Positions 13,086-22,285 of a stretch of 40,835 bases of DNA are shown piece by piece. Both the position numbers and the translations under genes were made by a program. The notes under the pieces are model-generated. The model did not search any database. It was not told the DNA's origin and worked only from the letters and a program-made list of their open reading frames with translations. The DNA lies in the IMG/VR virus record IMGVR_UViG_3300046660_000139, positions 1-40,835 of that record, one strand, 5' to 3'. The first letter of the stretch is position 1. Each line of letters opens with the position of its first letter. This DNA comes from a virus.

Positions 13086-13088
13086 GTG

Positions 13089-14150
13089 ATGCAGGAAGCA
13101 ATCGAGGTTCTCGACTTATTCAGCGCCGCGGCTGGTGGTTGGTCGCTTGGCATGCACCGTGCCGGCTTCAATACCATAGCCGCATGTGAATTCGTCGACT
13201 GGCGCCGCGCGCTTTATCAGGAGAACAATCCCGGTGTCCGAATCTACGACGATGTCCGCACGCTCACAGCAGATCAACTTCTTCGAGATTTCGGACGACT
13301 TCCGTCCATTGTCGTCGGAAGCCCCCCCTGCCAAGACATCAGCAGCGCCAACACCAAAGGCAAAGGCGTCGAAGGCGAGCGCAGCGGCCTCTACTTCGAA
13401 GCTGTCCGCATTATCGGAGAAGTCCGCCCTCGTTGGTTCGCTCTTGAAAACAGCTCTAATCTCAGAACTCGGGGAGCTGACGCCGTCCTCGCTGCATTGG
13501 AAGCACTCGGCTACGCCTGCTGGTCGTTTGTGGTCCGTGCTGGTGACATCGGAGCCAATCACGAACGGCCCAGGTGTTGGATCATCGGGTGCGACGTCGA
13601 GCAAGTTGCCTACCCCGATGGCCTCGGACGGAATGAAGGATGGGGCAGGGGGCGGTGCGGGTTCGACCTATCCATTTCGGATGATACTGTCTACGCCGCG
13701 GGCGTCGGACATGAAGGCTGCTGGACACGGGGCGACGGGGCGAACAGGAACGGTTCGGCACATGTTGCACGAATCCTACCTGCCGACGCCGCGCGCTTCG
13801 GAAGCTTATCACGGGCCGGATATGACCTCGCACAGCCCGAACATCAAAGCGAGGATGCAGAACAACGATCCACGGTGGTCGGGAGCGAGGGCGCTTGCGG
13901 ATATCCTTCAGAGCCATGGTCTGACTGGAACCACGGCATTACCGGTCACTTACGGCTGGATGATGGGCTTTCCGCCTGGCTGGCTGGCACTCGCGTTGCG
14001 CTCGGCACTCCAAAAGGGACATCTGCAGCAAGTCTCATCGTCGAAGCGTTCGGGGACGCTGTAGTCCCCCAAATACCGGAAGCAATAGGCCGCGCGATCC
14101 TTCGTACTGAGCGAGCCCTGGCCGTCGCCTACGGGAGGATCGCAGCATGA
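13089..14150 (+). CDS. C5-cytosine DNA methyltransferase
   Basis: A 353-residue Dcm-type enzyme that methylates cytosine at C5 using S-adenosylmethionine. Motif I is LDLFSAAAGGWSLG (8-21), motif IV is GSPPCQDIS with catalytic Cys81, motif VI is ALENSSN (118-124), motif VIII is NHERPRCWIIG (158-168), and the SAM-closing motif X is GDAVVPQIPEAIGRAI (about 322-337). The stretch between is the target-recognition region. No restriction nuclease is nearby, so it is an orphan, likely protecting phage DNA from host restriction. The ATG at 13089 is preferred over a GTG at 13086. A second long ORF is overprinted in the +1 frame. Confidence 0.93.
   Translation: MQEAIEVLDLFSAAAGGWSLGMHRAGFNTIAACEFVDWRRALYQENNPGVRIYDDVRTLTADQLLRDFGRLPSIVVGSPPCQDISSANTKGKGVEGERSGLYFEAVRIIGEVRPRWFALENSSNLRTRGADAVLAALEALGYACWSFVVRAGDIGANHERPRCWIIGCDVEQVAYPDGLGRNEGWGRGRCGFDLSISDDTVYAAGVGHEGCWTRGDGANRNGSAHVARILPADAARFGSLSRAGYDLAQPEHQSEDAEQRSTVVGSEGACGYPSEPWSDWNHGITGHLRLDDGLSAWLAGTRVALGTPKGTSAASLIVEAFGDAVVPQIPEAIGRAILRTERALAVAYGRIAA
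13252..14064 (+). CDS. Overprinted ORF inside the C5 methyltransferase gene
   Basis: A frame without stops runs from 13186 to 14064 in another frame of the methyltransferase gene; the first ATG is at 13252 (270 residues). It looks protein-like: SLLKTALISELGELTPSSLH, then ATPAGRLWSVLVTSEP, three related pieces (LPTPMASDGMK, STPRASDMK, LPTPRASEAYH) and YGWMMGFPPGWLALALRSAL. From memory, the same pieces (lpTPtA.D, WK..ATPAGR, MGFP.GW) recur in phage proteins encoded next to or within methyltransferase genes. The true start is uncertain and no clear ribosome binding site is visible. Function is unknown. Confidence 0.6.
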   Translation: MSARSQQINFFEISDDFRPLSSEAPPAKTSAAPTPKAKASKASAAASTSKLSALSEKSALVGSLLKTALISELGELTPSSLHWKHSATPAGRLWSVLVTSEPITNGPGVGSSGATSSKLPTPMASDGMKDGAGGGAGSTYPFRMILSTPRASDMKAAGHGATGRTGTVRHMLHESYLPTPRASEAYHGPDMTSHSPNIKARMQNNDPRWSGARALADILQSHGLTGTTALPVTYGWMMGFPPGWLALALRSALQKGHLQQVSSSKRSGTL

Positions 14151-14344
14151 CCGAACCCTCCGAGATGATTCAGTGGTTAGACAAGCGCATAGCCAGCGCC
14201 ATGACCTGGCTCGACGATCACGGCCGCAGTTCCAAGCGTCCTCGTCCTGAAGGCGAGATCGCCACCAAGCTCGATGACGTGTCGAAGTTTGAGGAGATCA
14301 AGGCGGCTTATGTGAAGGCGCTCGCGAAGAGGGATGCATTATGA
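14147..14344 (+). CDS. Small unknown protein
   Basis: A 65-residue helical protein (MTEPSEMIQWLDKRIASAMT at the start). It is joined to the methyltransferase before it and the adenine methyltransferase after it by four-base ATGA or ATGA-type overlaps. No family is recognised. Confidence 0.6.
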   Translation: MTEPSEMIQWLDKRIASAMTWLDDHGRSSKRPRPEGEIATKLDDVSKFEEIKAAYVKALAKRDAL

Positions 14345-14907
14345 CCGTTGTCGCCTCAAAATATGCTCGCGTCGAAAACGACCTATACCAAACAGAACCA
14401 TGGGTGACTGAGGCTCTATTGCGCCACTTCCCCGTTGCGGGGCTTGATGTGTGGGAGCCGGCCGCTGGCAATCATCTCATGGCTGACGTTATCGCAGAGC
14501 AGGCAAGCTCCGTCTATACATCGGACATCGCGACTTACGGGCGCCAGCATGACAAGGCTTTCGACTTCCTCAAGCCGCATGGCTCATGGCCGGCGCTGGA
14601 TGCCATCATCACGAACCCACCATACGGTAAAAGCAATCGCGATGCGCGTCTCTTCGCCGAGTATGCGCTTACGCGGTGCAAAGGTCTGGTCGCGCTTCTT
14701 CTCACGGCCAAATTCGATTTCGGGAATACACGCACCCATCTATTCGCCACCAATGCTCGCTTCGCCGCCAAGATAACCCTCGTCGATCGCATCAGTTGGA
14801 CGCTCGACGGTGTGACTGGCACCGAAGACCATGCTTGGTACGTTTGGACCGAAGCGCCACGTCTGCCGCGCTCGCCTGTCATTCTTTATGACGGGAGGAG
14901 AGCATGA
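14341..14907 (+). CDS. N6-adenine DNA methyltransferase
   Basis: A 188-residue phage methyltransferase. The SAM-binding motif is VWEPAAGNHLMAD (38-49), and the catalytic motif is TNPPYGKS with NPPY at 92-95, typical of N6-adenine (or N4-cytosine) enzymes. Its small size and lack of a clear target-recognition domain fit the short phage Dam-like enzymes. No restriction partner is present, so protection from host restriction or regulation is likely. It overlaps both neighbours by four bases. Confidence 0.85.
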   Translation: MTVVASKYARVENDLYQTEPWVTEALLRHFPVAGLDVWEPAAGNHLMADVIAEQASSVYTSDIATYGRQHDKAFDFLKPHGSWPALDAIITNPPYGKSNRDARLFAEYALTRCKGLVALLLTAKFDFGNTRTHLFATNARFAAKITLVDRISWTLDGVTGTEDHAWYVWTEAPRLPRSPVILYDGRRA

Positions 14908-16564: not shown

Positions 16565-17198
16565 CCTCGTTTCCGAAGATATCTTCGACCGCCTTCCAGA
16601 GCGCTATCGCCGTAGGGCCAGAGAGATCGCCCAGCGTGTTGCCGAGATCGATCGGCTGATGGAGCGTTGCAAGCCTATCGCCATCCGAGACGCTGCTATC
16701 CGCCTTCGTGGCCAGTTGCGCCCGCAGCCAGGTATCGAGATCGGAGACTTCGCTGAGGAGTTCCGCCAGGCATGCGCCGATCTTCCGGAATGGGCGGTAT
16801 CCGAGGCCACGAACGATTTCCTTGGCGGACGGGTTGAAAACCATACCGGCCAGTTCATGCCGACATGTGCGGAGTTTGCCAAGCACGCCAGATCGATCAC
16901 CGCCCCGTTCTGGGGTGAACGGTTGGGCCTGCGCCGGGAAGCTCAGAAGCTCTTCGACAGAGCCGAGGACGAGCGCCGCCGCATGCAGATCGCCGTCGAG
17001 CGAGCCAAGCCAGGGCACCGTGAATGGGTTCGGAAGCTTGCTAAGTCAGTCACAGCCGGAGCGCCAGTGATCACCAGCCGCAAGCAGGCTTCAACCGATC
17101 CAGAGACGCAAGCCAAGCTCGACGCTCTCAAGGCAAAGCGTCCCGAGCCGCAATCGAAACTCCCACAAACCAGCATGGTACGAGGATCCAAGCGATGA
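16557..17198 (+). CDS. Unknown replication-region protein
   Basis: A 213-residue helical protein with basic segments (PERYRRRAREIAQRVAEIDR). The region EFRQACADLPEWAVSEATND with FMPTCAEFAKHAR after it resembles phage proteins of unknown function found between DUF1376 and DnaA-like genes. A loader or primosome function is possible from position only. It overlaps its neighbours by eight and four bases. Confidence 0.65.
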   Translation: MHDLVSEDIFDRLPERYRRRAREIAQRVAEIDRLMERCKPIAIRDAAIRLRGQLRPQPGIEIGDFAEEFRQACADLPEWAVSEATNDFLGGRVENHTGQFMPTCAEFAKHARSITAPFWGERLGLRREAQKLFDRAEDERRRMQIAVERAKPGHREWVRKLAKSVTAGAPVITSRKQASTDPETQAKLDALKAKRPEPQSKLPQTSMVRGSKR

Positions 17199-17674
17199 AC
17201 ATCCAGTTTGAAACCAAGCACTACCAGACCGGCGCCGAGATGATCGAGGAAGCCAGGGCGCGCCGCAAGCGGTTCGAGATTGCTGGGCGTCTGGCGAAGA
17301 TGAAGAGGCTCGCGCCGCCGCCAGCCCCTGAACCGGCGGTGAAGACAGTCGTCGCCCCGAAGCCTCCGCTCTGGGATCAGTTCAGCTTGAACTTCGATGC
17401 CCACATCACCGAGTGGCACATGCGGAAGGTAAACCCGCCGCTGACCTATCTCAAGGACCGATGCGCTGAACTCGGATGGTCGTTCACCGTCATCATCGGG
17501 CCGCAGCGCCGGGACAAGGTCGTCGAGGTTCGCCATCAGCTGATGTGGGAAATCTCTGAGCGGTTCCGGATCAGCTTGCCGCAGATTGGTCGGCTATTCG
17601 GCGGCAGGGACCATTCTACTGCACTTTATGCGATCAGGAAAGTCGAAGCGCGGATGGTGGAGGCGCGCGCATGA
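17195..17674 (+). CDS. DnaA domain IV-like DNA-binding protein
   Basis: A 159-residue protein without the AAA+ part of DnaA. Residues about 105-152 match the DNA-box-binding domain IV: helices VVEVRHQLMWEISERFRISL and the signature GGRDHSTALYAIRKVE (136-151). The N-terminal 100 residues are unrelated, with a proline-rich linker. It may bind DnaA boxes in host or phage DNA to direct or block initiation. It overlaps both neighbours by four bases. Confidence 0.82.
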   Translation: MNIQFETKHYQTGAEMIEEARARRKRFEIAGRLAKMKRLAPPPAPEPAVKTVVAPKPPLWDQFSLNFDAHITEWHMRKVNPPLTYLKDRCAELGWSFTVIIGPQRRDKVVEVRHQLMWEISERFRISLPQIGRLFGGRDHSTALYAIRKVEARMVEARA

Positions 17675-18637: not shown

Positions 18638-19231
18638 ATGGCGGAACCGAAGAAGACACGAAAGCGGCCGGCGCGGACGTTCAAGGGACTGGTAGCAGCA
18701 AATACGGAGTTGGACGGCCTCGGCAACCAGCATTCCAAGGTAAAGCTGATCGAGATCGACAATCCGCATTACAGCAAAGCGCACGCTGGCGCCGTGGGTA
18801 ACCCGAAGACCATAACGGCGGCAATGAACCTACGAGAAAGCCCGATCGCCATGATGGCGGCGAAGGGGCACATCGAGCCTCACCAACTTCAGGCGGCCGA
18901 CAAGTTCCGGCGCTTGTGGGAATCGCTCGGCGGATCTGGCGCTGGATCATTCGATTACAGCCGGGAGCCGGTCGATGGCGGCGGCACGCGCGAGCCGATA
19001 ACCGATAGGCAGATCGACGCAGGATTCGCTCTCAAGGCATGCCAGAGTGCATTGGGCCCAAGGCCATACGACATCGTCAGCAAAGTGGTGGGGGAAGGGC
19101 GCACGATTACAGAACTTGGCGCGTCAAAGCGCGAGCGCCATACCTTAGCCGACTACCTACGAAATGCCTTGGACGATTTGGCTGTGCATTGGGGCTTCCA
19201 GAAGAGAAAAACACCAGTGAATTCGCGATAG
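18638..19231 (+). CDS. DUF6456-like protein, candidate late regulator
   Basis: A 197-residue protein with a basic, disordered N-terminal part and a helical C-terminal part (residues about 125-190, QIDAGFALKACQSALGPRPY, VVGEGRTITELGASKRERHT, YLRNALDDLAVHWGF) that resembles DUF6456, a helix-turn-helix-type domain of alpha-proteobacteria. It is the last gene before the candidate promoter at 19238 and the late genes, the usual place for a late activator or antiterminator. That role is inferred. The ATG at 18638 has GAGGG upstream. Confidence 0.6.
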   Translation: MAEPKKTRKRPARTFKGLVAANTELDGLGNQHSKVKLIEIDNPHYSKAHAGAVGNPKTITAAMNLRESPIAMMAAKGHIEPHQLQAADKFRRLWESLGGSGAGSFDYSREPVDGGGTREPITDRQIDAGFALKACQSALGPRPYDIVSKVVGEGRTITELGASKRERHTLADYLRNALDDLAVHWGFQKRKTPVNSR

Positions 19232-19539
19232 GCGGTATTGTCAAGGTTAACCTTGCGAGGTATGTAGTGGATATGGTGGTGATTTGCGCAATGCGCAGTG
19301 AAATTCACCTGAACCAATTCGAGGCGAATGCCGGCGAGACTACAGGCTTTGATGTCTCGCCAATCCTTGTCGCCTCAACGAGGGTGCCTCCTGTTAGCCA
19401 AGCGCAGGTGCAGAAAAATGTGGATATGCCCACATAGGCCAGAGCAATTCAGTTTAGCGCCATAGAGCCCGTCACCGGATTGTCACCCGGTCGACGGGGT
19501 TTCGTATTTCCCCACGCAATCAATCCAAGGAGAGTGCTG
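19232..19539 (+). other. Intergenic region before the Tad1-like gene
   Basis: This 308-base stretch contains the promoter and palindrome described separately. A 54-codon frame starting at 19273 (MVVICAMRSEIHLNQFEANA) ends at 19437; its ATG falls at the predicted transcription start, so a leaderless peptide is possible, but nothing else supports it. Between 19450 and 19505 several short repeats and hairpins (GTCACCGG, GTCACCCGG, GGGG/CCCC) are visible without a clear RNA fold. Confidence 0.35.
19238..19266 (+). promoter_or_regulatory. Candidate promoter with 14-bp palindrome
   Basis: TTGTCA (19238-19243) and TATGTA (19261-19266) stand 17 bases apart. The spacer holds the perfect palindrome CAAGGTTAACCTTG (19242-19255), which is unlike the CI operator. 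The placement copies that of the operators in PL and PR. It would drive the Tad1-like gene and could be under a separate regulator. Confidence 0.55.
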
Positions 19540-19908
19540 ATGCGCACGATCACCGAGCATAAGGTCAACCCGGCCAACGACAAACTTCTTATCGAGGTAG
19601 TGGATGAACCTGGCGCCGGTGGCGCGAACCACGAATATGTTGTGACGCTTCCGCCTGTCGATGGGGCAGCCAAGGCCTTCCATATCAGTTTTCAGAATGG
19701 CCCAATCAACGAGAATGGCGTGAACGGTTTGACGCAGGAAGTCTTGCTGGCAATCGTTGCCGACCGTCTGCGTTCGTTCCAAGCAGGCCCATACTCGTGC
19801 CGCGAAAATGCGCTCGCTCTTACCAAGATTGAAGAGGCCCAGCATTGGCTTCATAGTCGTACCCTGGCGCGTATGCAGCGCGGCGTTGAAGGTACCCACC
19901 AGAAGTGA
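19540..19908 (+). CDS. Acb2/Tad1-type anti-defence protein
   Basis: A 122-residue protein. Residues 5-55 form a beta-rich domain (LLIEVVDEPGAGGANHEYVV with FHISFQNGPINENGVNG after it). Residues 63-118 form a helical hairpin (TQEVLLAIVADRLRSFQAGP, CRENALALTKIEEAQHWLHS, RTLARMQRGVEGT). This order matches the Acb2/Tad1 hairpin family as I know it: phage sponges that bind signal nucleotides of Thoeris (glycocyclic ADP-ribose, Tad1) and CBASS (cyclic oligonucleotides, Acb2). With the beta domain it is closer to Tad1. The ATG at 19540 has AAGGAG upstream, and a terminator follows the stop, so it may be a separate unit. Confidence 0.72.
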   Translation: MRTITEHKVNPANDKLLIEVVDEPGAGGANHEYVVTLPPVDGAAKAFHISFQNGPINENGVNGLTQEVLLAIVADRLRSFQAGPYSCRENALALTKIEEAQHWLHSRTLARMQRGVEGTHQK

Positions 19909-19915
19909 TTTATTC

Positions 19916-19948
19916 AGCCCGATCGGCATAACTGCTGATCGGGCTTTT
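19916..19948 (+). terminator. Intrinsic terminator after the Tad1-like gene
   Basis: AGCCCGATC (19916-19924) pairs perfectly with GATCGGGCT (19937-19945) around a 12-base loop, and four T follow (19945-19948). It starts eight bases after the stop codon and lies just before the ribosome binding site of the next gene. Confidence 0.88.
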
Positions 19949-19972: not shown

Positions 19973-20188
19973 ATGGTTGAAAATCAAGCCGCCTCCGTTT
20001 TGAGAGACAACGCCGATTTCGCCAGCCTCGATCACTGTTGCTACATGCGTCGCGCCACTGCGGAAGACGGCCGGCTATGCTGGGTCCTGTTCAACAGCGA
20101 TGGTGACGCGGAACTGGCGACGGACACCCGCAGTGATGTGTTCTTCTATGCTCATAAGCGTGAGCTGAAAATGATGTGGCTGAATTAG
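19973..20188 (+). CDS. Small unknown protein, DUF1150-like
   Basis: A 71-residue protein starting MVENQAASVLRDNADFASLD. The pattern CYMRRATAEDGRLCWVLFNS followed by a helix and a final strand (AHKRELKMMWLN) is reminiscent of DUF1150, a small alpha-proteobacterial family without known function. The ATG at 19973 has GAGAGG upstream. The match is by pattern only. Confidence 0.55.
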   Translation: MVENQAASVLRDNADFASLDHCCYMRRATAEDGRLCWVLFNSDGDAELATDTRSDVFFYAHKRELKMMWLN

Positions 20189-20587: not shown

Positions 20588-20724
20588 CCTAATCCGCCGA
20601 CATTAGGAACAAGGCTTCGTTCGTGGCCAAGAACCATCCCCGCCGCTCCGGGGTCGTCTCCCTTCATATTCGGCGTTAAGCGAGCCAGTCGGTAATCATT
20701 CAAATCTAAAGTAGGCGTTTGTAG

Positions 20725-21003
20725 ATGGCGCAAGGTGTAAAAACGGGCGGCCGAAAAAAAGGCACCCCGAACAAAACCACGGCTGTCTTGAAAGACGCGA
20801 TCTTAGAGGCTGCAACGCTCTCTGGCGGTAAAGACGGGCTGGTTGGATATTTGAAGAAACAGGCATCCGAGAACCCGGCGCCGTTTCTAGCGTTGCTCGG
20901 GAAGGTTCTTCCTATGCAGATCGCAGGAGATCCAGACAATCCCATCCACACCGTAACCCGCATTGAGCTTGTCGCTCCTGGCCATGACGACAGCACGACT
21001 TGA
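20725..21003 (+). CDS. Terminase small subunit (candidate)
   Basis: A 92-residue protein with the basic N-terminal GGRKKGTPNKTTAVLKDAI (about 8-26) common to many small terminase-like phage proteins, followed by helices (DGLVGYLKKQASENPAPFLA, LLGKVLPMQ). It directly precedes and overlaps the large terminase gene, so DNA recognition for packaging is likely. The ATG at 20725 fits the start of the motif. Confidence 0.72.
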   Translation: MAQGVKTGGRKKGTPNKTTAVLKDAILEAATLSGGKDGLVGYLKKQASENPAPFLALLGKVLPMQIAGDPDNPIHTVTRIELVAPGHDDSTT

Positions 21004-22285
21004 AATCCCTCCAAAGCTTCTGTCGGTGTTCTCCGGTGAGGCAGATGTAAGAGGAGCAAAAGGCGGCCGCGGTTCTGGCAAGACGCGGACTTTTGCGAAG
21101 ATGACTGCCGTTCGCGGCTACATGTGGAGCAAAGCAGGGCGCGAAGGCATATTGCTCTGCGGCCGCCAGTTCATGAACTCGCTGGATGATTCCTCGCTTG
21201 AGGAGATCAAGTCCGCGATCCGATCTGAACCATGGCTGGAAGCGCATTACGAGATCGGTGAAAAATACGTTCGGACCAAAGACGGGCGCGTCTCATACAA
21301 GTTCACCGGCCTTGATCGTAACATCGACAGCGTCAAATCAAAATCCCGCATTCTTCTGTGCTGGGTTGATGAGGCAGAGCCGGTTACCGAAGAGGCTTGG
21401 GTAAAGCTCATACCGACGCTTCGCGAGGAAGACAGCGAGCTTTGGCTTACCTGGAACCCTGAGCGCAAGAATAGCGCCACCAATAAGCGTTTCGTGAATT
21501 CCACCGACCCGAGAACCAAGATTGCGACAGTGAACTGGCGCGACAATCCTTGGTTTCCGAAGATTCTCGATCGTGTCCGTCTCAAAGATCTGAACGAGCG
21601 ACCAGAGCAATATGATCATATCTGGGAAGGTGGATACAAGACAGCGATAGAAGGCGCCTATTATGCCAAAGCTTTGGCTCAAGCGCGCCTAGAGGGCCGG
21701 ATAGGTCATGTTCCTCGCGATCCGCTTATGCCGCTCCGCGCTTATTGGGATATCGGCGTCAGCGATGCAACCACGATCTGGTTGCCGCAGCTGATCGGAA
21801 TGGATGTCCGATTCATCGACTATTACGAGGTCGAGAACCAGCCTCTAGCCGCTCATGTTGAATGGATGCGCTCGAGCGGATACGGGAACGCCGTCTGCAT
21901 CTTGCCACATGATGGCGAACATAGAGATGCAGTGACGGCGATCCGTTATGAGGACCATCTACGAGCCGCCGGATTCGAAGTCCGTACGGTTGCCAACCAA
22001 GGTAAAGGCGCTGCGATGAAGCGCGTTGAAGCTGGCCGCCGCGTTTTCCCGCGCCTCTGGTTTGATGAAAAGAAATGCGCCGCCGGAATTGACGCTCTAG
22101 GCTGGTATCACGAAAAGCGTGATGAAAATCGTGGCGTCGGTCTCGGGCCTGAGCACGATTGGTCATCGCACGGCGCCGATTCCTTCGGGCTCGCCTGCGT
22201 GGATTACGAAGAGCCTTATTCGCCGGCCTCGCGCCGCAGATACTCGGGACGTTCGTCCTCCTCAAATTCCTGGATGGCTGGTTGA
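20984..22285 (+). CDS. terL: Terminase large subunit
   Basis: A 433-residue packaging motor of the PBSX/Terminase_3 type. The ATPase has Walker A GAKGGRGSGKT (24-34) and Walker B ILLCWVDEAE with Asp130 and Glu131, then the coupling region WLTWNPERKNS. The nuclease half has AYWDIGVSDATT (Asp257) and the later HDWSSHGADSFGLA (Asp near 408). It pumps DNA into the procapsid and cuts it. The ATG at 20984 overlaps the small-subunit gene by 20 bases. Confidence 0.93.
   Translation: MTTARLEIPPKLLSVFSGEADVRGAKGGRGSGKTRTFAKMTAVRGYMWSKAGREGILLCGRQFMNSLDDSSLEEIKSAIRSEPWLEAHYEIGEKYVRTKDGRVSYKFTGLDRNIDSVKSKSRILLCWVDEAEPVTEEAWVKLIPTLREEDSELWLTWNPERKNSATNKRFVNSTDPRTKIATVNWRDNPWFPKILDRVRLKDLNERPEQYDHIWEGGYKTAIEGAYYAKALAQARLEGRIGHVPRDPLMPLRAYWDIGVSDATTIWLPQLIGMDVRFIDYYEVENQPLAAHVEWMRSSGYGNAVCILPHDGEHRDAVTAIRYEDHLRAAGFEVRTVANQGKGAAMKRVEAGRRVFPRLWFDEKKCAAGIDALGWYHEKRDENRGVGLGPEHDWSSHGADSFGLACVDYEEPYSPASRRRYSGRSSSSNSWMAG

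Follow-up and report, generated by a model that had tools for sequence, protein, structure and literature searches.

The window analyzed here, the whole of a 40,835-base virus record, contains a short gene beside its packaging genes, and this locus raises two questions: what kind of protein does the gene encode, and is it expressed as a unit of its own or under the control of the phage that carries it? The window encodes an integrase, a repressor, RecT, Gam, a terminase, a major head protein, and tail genes; the integrase, repressor, head, and tail genes identify it as a temperate tailed phage. Its relatives, as judged by sequence, point to the Rhizobium group: for a regulator gene upstream of the locus (Table 1), 29 of 148 genomes in the genus-level group of Rhizobium sp. 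BK251 gave matches, one of these genomes carrying a relative at 80%, and seven stretches (L123–L129) from the 29 matching genomes were taken for comparison. The early region of the window also holds two DNA methyltransferase genes (13086–14150 and 14341–14907, + strand).

Results

The gene encodes a Tad1 homolog

With the 122-aa product as query, a phmmer search of the PDB retrieved Tad1 chains at E values of 5.3e-21 to 3.2e-20 (8kbb, 5.3e-21; 7uav, 2.4e-20), followed by gp184 (8y6v_I; 1.5e-14) and nothing else below 0.3. A profile built from 70 sequences raised the match to solved Tad1 structures to 9.8e-30. The AlphaFold (AF2) monomer model (mean pLDDT 91.2) has strands at residues 17–20, 32–40, and 43–51 and helices at 66–82 and 88–113, an order that agrees with the description of Tad1 in PMC12043709, with an antiparallel beta part at the N terminus and then two long helices. 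When this predicted model was submitted to Foldseek, the best named match was CbTad1 (7uaw; E 1.5e-9, TM 0.81) and all 20 matches below 0.001 were Tad1 chains; a second structural aligner gave CbTad1 a Z score of 13.4 over 119 residues, against 7.4 over 50 residues for the best unrelated row. Sequence and predicted fold, the latter agreeing with CbTad1 and CmTad1 far better than with any other structure, thus strongly support a real gene whose product is a Tad1 homolog.

Table 1. Positions of features in the window (first 12 rows) and in related loci (last three rows).
Feature	Position	Strand	Basis
DnaA C-terminal helix-turn-helix protein, 159 aa; candidate GafY-like partner	17195..17674	+	PF08299
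DUF6456-like protein, 197 aa; candidate late regulator/anti-terminator (GafZ, GafA C-terminal kind)	18638..19231	+	Weak PF20057 match
Promoter TTGTCA-N17-TATGTA, sigma-70-like, immediately after the regulator gene	19238..19266	+	Conserved layout
Perfect palindrome AAGGTTAACCTT in the -35/-10 spacer	19243..19254	+	Read from sequence
Conserved element GGTGATTTGC, shortly past the -10	19278..19287	+	Conserved place
YrlA (Y-RNA-like) stem in the leader, lacking the tRNA-like module	19321..19379	+	RF02553, 40.1 bits, under gathering score 69
Ribosome site of tad1, AAGGAGAG	19527..19534	+	Read from sequence
tad1 homolog, 122 aa, ATG start	19540..19908	+	Sequence and predicted fold
Intrinsic terminator-like hairpin, 8 nt past the tad1 stop	19916..19945	+	13 pairs, 4-nt loop, T-rich tail
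71-aa ORF, weakly DUF1150-like, same slot	19973..20188	+	PF06620, E 0.022; NF052376, E 9.2e-5; both under cut-off
Probable small terminase gene, named by place alone	20725..21003	+	phrog_11043 (unknown function), E 4.9e-35
Large terminase gene	20963..22285	+	PF04466, E 1.1e-22; phrog_3717, E 7.8e-58
Slot loci with a gene followed by a terminator	Window, L130, L132, L123, L137, L139, L136 (doubtful ORF)
tRNA genes near tad1	L003:4864-4939, L004:4856-4931, L023:4841-4917, L091:9895-9971		ARAGORN
tRNA match within 100 nt upstream of tad1	L054:2041-2172		Rfam

Because its predicted model has the N-terminal beta part, the protein is placed in the Tad1 branch and not with Acb2, which PMC12043709 describes as helices only. 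Pfam groups the C-terminal hairpin with Acb2 (Acb2_Tad1_hairpin, PF24729; E 5.3e-5, 23.8 bits, under the gathering score of 27, a score that is no defining feature of Tad1). The original prediction had named the Acb2/Tad1 family and quoted three peptides, all of which are present in the 122-aa protein; the family was right, with Tad1 singled out by sequence as well as by fold, and the structure comparison that it proposed returned Tad1 complete with the beta part that Acb2 lacks.

The protein is of the same sequence type as CbTad1 (7uav/7uaw/8smd), CmTad1 (8kbb–8kbd), and SBSphiJ7 Tad1, with the same beta part and helical hairpin, the same FQ/CREN/R...R positions, and the same setting as a single small phage gene. 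It is ∼40% identical to CbTad1 and differs from many Tad1 relatives in having a shorter loop between strands. We regard it as a clear, and in itself ordinary, member of the Tad1 sponge family. PADLOC and NCBIfam contained no model matching the protein at E <= 1, and the three PHROG families that match it strongly (2428, 23843, and 22140) are all labeled as of unknown function, so these libraries would not name tad1. The three PHROG families can probably be named Tad1-like.

Conserved positions point to a probable signal-binding sponge

We aligned the window's protein with those of 72 of 99 tad1 loci, leaving out copies and broken or partial ones (alignment A1, 73 sequences). Residues F51, Q52, G54, N62, G63, E67, R76, F80, Q81, A93, R107, T108, R111, V116, E117, and G118 are invariant, and N90 is kept in at least 90% of the sequences. 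Some relatives have K or E at position 88, where this protein has R, and some carry KAN in place of REN at the CREN motif, where the window's protein keeps REN. Structural alignment pairs CbTad1 F82, R90, N92, R109, and R113, which we take to be its ligand contacts, with F80, R88, N90, R107, and R111, all kept in the tad1 protein (the offset near the C terminus is +2, model residue 121 being entry residue 123 of 7uaw). For five tad1 pairs, dN/dS was 0.032, 0.052, and 0.064 in three, at dS values of 2.3 to 2.8 that are near saturation; dS was not computable in the other two. In the three computed pairs, replacement changes are thus scarce next to silent ones.

PMC12043709 describes Tad1 as a hexamer with one kind of pocket for both gcADPR and cyclic dinucleotides and another place for cyclic trinucleotides, and Tad1 proteins as binding several signal classes. 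Taking sequence, predicted fold, conserved positions, and this family description together, the most likely mechanism is that of a sponge for gcADPR and cyclic nucleotides. As in the known family, the protein would assemble as a hexamer and bind gcADPR and cyclic di- or trinucleotides without degrading them, and the bound signals would leave Thoeris or CBASS effectors silent during phage growth.

Relatives of tad1 lie in varied surroundings

Searches for relatives confirmed 142 tad1-matching stretches in viral contigs, 80 of which were kept for further use, and 15 loci in bacterial contigs, including one in Rhizobium sp. BK251 at 84%. There are relatives in 121 phage records, among them SBSphiJ7, where the gene is annotated Tad1 (49% identity over 80% of the query), and a Leptolyngbya relative is 51% identical. 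In a contig of Rhizobium leguminosarum Tri-43 (L093), the tad1 copy is broken by a frame change into separate pieces on the same strand that cover profile positions 1–26 and 35–123.

DNA likeness to six close relatives extends over the gene and only ∼20 to 45 bp 5' of the ATG, the final ∼20 bp being alike in all six; one of them (L006) has an extra short DNA-similar patch at window positions 20605–20687. When 15 proteins encoded around tad1 in the window were compared by tblastn with 98 tad1 loci, one of them from the window's own phage (L002), the surroundings proved mostly unrelated, and we rejected the idea that tad1 travels with its neighbors; the most widely common ones were a portal (9 loci), a large terminase (8), and a DnaA-like protein (5). 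The terminase is likewise a frequent neighbor and not a constant one. An ORF of 380 aa or more lies downstream in 41 of the 64 loci having at least 4.4 kb there. Across those 41, Pfam terminase families form a minority (6, 6, 3, 3, 3, 2, and 2 members, overlapping), and ten loci scanned singly yielded five terminase domains and one head-tail connector. tRNA genes stand within 100 nt upstream of tad1 in four of 64 loci by ARAGORN, and Rfam gave one further such match (Table 1).

The hairpin directly behind the window's tad1 is strong: positions 19905–19960 fold at -28.2 kcal/mol, compared with -10.2 +/- 2.6 for 200 shuffled sequences, none of which did as well (z -7.0). The original prediction of a terminator directly after the stop was therefore correct. 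It is also the sole terminator-like site found in the 2000 nt after the stop of the DUF6456-like gene. As a general feature of tad1, a terminator was rejected; one occurs within 60 nt after the gene in seven of 83 distinct loci, L002 among them, and in four of 1660 random control positions, so that the window's terminator is real and not typical. The 83 loci exclude copies, loci with little downstream sequence, the broken L093, and the partial L095 and L096.

The hairpin overlaps a match to the CC0196 sRNA (RF01519) at 19883–19948, with 30.3 bits against a gathering score of 35. The consensus of that family can be taken for a Tad1 C terminus, a likeness that we rejected as chance: RF01519 matched 18 of 385 alphaproteobacterial genomes at E <= 0.01, one of them over the cut-off, and among 20 RF01519 loci, tblastn of five found no Tad1 and the two of these five that were read had no Tad1 tail.

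A conserved putative promoter stands behind the regulator gene

The promoter called ahead of tad1 lies directly behind the gene for a DUF6456-like protein and is followed by a short element of the form GGYGATTTGC (Table 1). We counted this element first in 24 loci having a regulator relative (the window, L130–L147, L123, L124, L125, L127, and L128; 22 distinct rows), and L126, L129, L148, and L149 were added later; the exact element is present in 24 of these 28 loci, from which L002 was left out, and the loci carrying it are mutually related, so the counts are not independent events. It is absent from the four added loci and from the diverged L009 and L054. Where present, it occurs once per locus, 27 to 53 nt past the regulator stop (in L143, 66 nt past the end of its match). 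For comparison, the element occurred four times in 95 tad1 loci that do not have the regulator gene, 961,906 bases in all. The window has one exact copy, and its sites with at most one mismatch number nine against 9.4 expected by chance, so the weight of the element lies in its conserved place. Ahead of it, a TTGNNN-17-TATNNN layout was seen by eye in all 22 distinct rows, which had been chosen by the downstream element.

A generic promoter scan reported no + strand site at the promoter, its one site lying on the other strand (1.6 expected), and the promoter call rests on conservation in related phages. No tad1 match was found in the stretches examined of the other 23 of the 24 element loci, the window being the sole carrier. 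Since the layout is conserved in relatives with no tad1 match, we assign this putative promoter to the phage, with tad1 inserted behind it. The palindrome in its spacer, ∼285 bp upstream of the tad1 ATG, is imperfect or different in relatives; by likeness to the Caulobacter GafZ element, AAGGTTAACCTT is a candidate regulator-binding element. A candidate promoter with a palindrome had been predicted to serve tad1 itself: a conserved promoter-like sequence and a perfect palindrome do stand there, and the sequence belongs with the phage's regulator gene and not with tad1.

The candidate regulator weakly resembles the GafZ family, and a DnaA-like gene lies nearby

The 197-aa regulator matches DUF6456 (PF20057) at E 9.1e-5 and 23.0 bits, under the cut-off of 26.3, and 11 of 18 of its relatives match at E <= 0.01. 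DUF6456 genes are found on the chromosome in eight of 31 genomes and, among 14 controls, only in Caulobacter. A profile comparison of the regulator with four of the eight chromosomal proteins was not significant (p 0.099); an HMM of these four had no match in the 83 tad1 loci, and an HMM of the phage regulators found L002, L054, and L009 there. No solved-structure relative of the regulator was found at E <= 1, and its predicted model is poor (pLDDT 66). A relative of the large terminase lies 1.6 to 4.5 kb downstream of the regulator in 13 of 23 other loci (L130 and L131 being alike).

Upstream, the 159-aa DnaA-like protein matches PF08299 at E 1.9e-13 and 50.7 bits, above the cut-off of 31.5. 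It is 35% identical over 46 aa to a DnaA-like ORF that, in a Rhizobium-group genome, neighbors a chromosomal DUF6456 gene (E 2e-5 as a single comparison).

DUF6456 is one annotation given to GafA homologs (PMC9638019). PMC11150451 reports that in Caulobacter the cluster of the gene transfer agent is driven by GafY and GafZ, which resemble the N-terminal and C-terminal parts of GafA, respectively; it describes GafZ as an anti-terminator, with a putative element located between -35 and -10, and places a terminator after the cluster's first gene. The window compares with this account, as a pattern of sequence, in having a DnaA-like and a weakly DUF6456-like gene and a putative promoter before packaging genes, with a palindrome between its -35 and -10 and with a terminator-like hairpin behind the first gene. 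It differs in that two genes lie between the regulators and that the first gene is tad1. From the weak family match and this precedent, we consider it somewhat more probable than not that the regulator is GafZ-like.

The leader holds a Y-RNA-like stem

Between promoter and gene, the leader matched the family of YrlA, a Y RNA of bacteria (RF02553), at E 1.5e-5 when the whole window was searched against all of Rfam, and at 3.5e-9 for RF02553 alone. In this match the two sides of the closing stem agree, as do the unpaired letters that separate them; the inner module of 57 nt is missing. Matches at E <= 0.01 were also seen in nine of 14 control genomes, none over the cut-off, so low scores for this family mean little. 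The leader score is well above that of the only other RF02553 match among 50 phage records (16.6 bits, in L146), which we rejected because it overlaps ordinary tRNA matches. A strict motif search of 1.41 Mb of loci, redundant ones included, recovered the stem from the window and copies of its phage and from no other locus. For a Ro60 (TROVE) partner, four of 148 genomes matched at E <= 0.001, one of them just at the cut-off, and none was a clear partner.

A variable slot lies ahead of the terminase genes

Sister phages carry differing small ORFs between the promoter and the terminase. In seven of 22 distinct loci (Table 1), the slot contains a gene of 60 aa or more with a terminator-like site no farther than 40 nt from its end, a count that has no random control. 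Because the slots of sister phages hold varied small ORFs, some with terminators, we read tad1 as one cargo among several in a variable slot before the terminase, on this comparison of sequences. In 11 of 24 loci a GC-rich terminator lies 58 to 83 nt past the regulator stop, ahead of any cargo. The window, L130, and L131 have no such promoter-near terminator; the first one found downstream of the promoter stands behind the cargo, both in the window and in L130/L131, where the cargo gene is a different one. Scans of 2000 nt in L140, L142, L143, L145, L146, and L147, and of 887 nt in L128, gave no terminator-like site.

Several further observations concern this slot. The slot genes of L123, L137, and L139 encode alike proteins of 105 to 118 aa with a signal-like N terminus (by eye), followed by a terminator. 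tRNA matches lie just behind the regulator promoter in two sister phages with no tad1 match (L145:5680-5751 and L146:1882-2030). In the window, the 71-aa ORF past the tad1 terminator weakly resembles the DUF1150/BQ00720 small-protein family, and the product of the probable small terminase gene had no Pfam match.

Defense genes in the host group

The original prediction held further that tad1 tells which nucleotide signals the host's defense uses, and suggested looking for Thoeris or CBASS in related hosts. Among 148 Rhizobium-group genomes, ThsA of the STALD type occurs in three, ThsA of the macro type in three, SMODS CD-NTases over the cut-off in 28, and tad1 in two. Neither tad1-bearing genome had a match to ThsA (two Pfam models) or to a SMODS CD-NTase. 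SMODS matches are thus commoner than ThsA in this group, and SMODS alone does not prove CBASS. With both carriers negative for these genes and Tad1 described in PMC12043709 as binding several signal classes, the prediction about host signals is not supported.

Discussion

We consider it likely that the locus encodes a Tad1-type sponge whose expression is probably tied to the late switch of the phage. The original prediction of a separate transcription unit would make tad1 a moron of full autonomy, equipped with a promoter and a terminator of its own and expressed in the lysogen free of phage control. The strong terminator after the gene and the promoter-like site upstream fit such a unit, as does L009, where tad1 also has a terminator directly after it and a terminator-like sequence just before it (by eye). 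The order in L009 (partly by eye) is DUF6456-like gene, terminator-like sequence, tad1, terminator, and an HTH small-terminase-like ORF; that first terminator-like sequence ends ∼50 nt before the ATG (by eye), so close that there is scant space for a promoter. This points to read-through, and otherwise the L009 gene would have to depend on a promoter of very small size. In the window, moreover, the promoter layout is conserved in relatives with no tad1 match and lies outside the DNA common to the six close tad1 relatives, the generic scan gave no + strand site, and 76 of the 83 distinct tad1 loci have no terminator directly after the gene. Autonomy is accordingly an unlikely reading; the terminator of the predicted unit stands, and a private promoter for tad1 is improbable. 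In the lysogen, tad1 may be expressed.

Two other readings concern the protein. Tad1 might be a virion protein that is injected, which would provide the cell with the sponge from the first minute of an infection onward. This would fit the position of tad1 next to packaging genes and its sequence relationship to gp184 (8y6v_I, E 1.5e-14), probably the phiKZ protein to judge by its name; phiKZ gp184 is reported in PMC10449902 as injected into the host, and PMC12043709 says that Tad1 is encoded by an orf184. The gp184 of 8y6v, however, has 230 aa and is a Tad1 relative in its C-terminal half only, whereas the 122-aa protein does not have its N-terminal part, and we hold packaging to be quite improbable. 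Least probable is that the Tad1 fold has been retained for some other role after its binding was lost or altered: some relatives do have KAN instead of REN, but the window's protein keeps REN and both C-terminal arginines, and dN/dS is ∼0.03 to 0.06 in the three computed pairs.

For the preferred reading, a sponge tied to the late switch, the regulatory part is probable on the conserved sequence, the weak family match, and the published precedent. The conserved promoter behind the DUF6456-like gene would start a leader RNA, with tad1 as the first recognizable gene in the cargo slot. The terminator after tad1 would stop many polymerases, and the regulator, acting like the anti-terminator GafZ, would let polymerases run on into the terminase and head genes. 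In this way tad1 would be expressed ahead of the virion genes and with less difficulty.

A broader proposal, which we put forward tentatively and with the balance somewhat against it, is that this Rhizobium-group phage lineage keeps a standing cargo slot between the promoter of a GafZ-like anti-terminator and the terminase, that in the window and L130/L131 basal firing of the late promoter makes the cargo before or without virion genes, and that the leader of the window may also yield a minimal Y-RNA-like RNA. If it is true, the 11 of 24 loci with a terminator before the cargo would hold fully anti-terminator-dependent cargo, and the slot genes of sister phages would be candidates for further anti-defense or lysogenic functions.

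Literature searches on Tad1 in Rhizobium phages and on GafA antiterminators in prophages turned up no description of this arrangement, and the link of an immune sponge to a conserved late-gene switch may be new. With this finding a clear Tad1 sponge is assigned to a temperate phage that its relatives link to the Rhizobium group, and 142 matching viral-contig stretches carry Tad1-like genes while the three strongly matched PHROG families stay labeled unknown. It would also tie an immune sponge to an apparent alphaproteobacterial late-gene switch of the gene-transfer-agent kind, and the defined slot in sister phages offers a place in which other anti-defense genes may be found.
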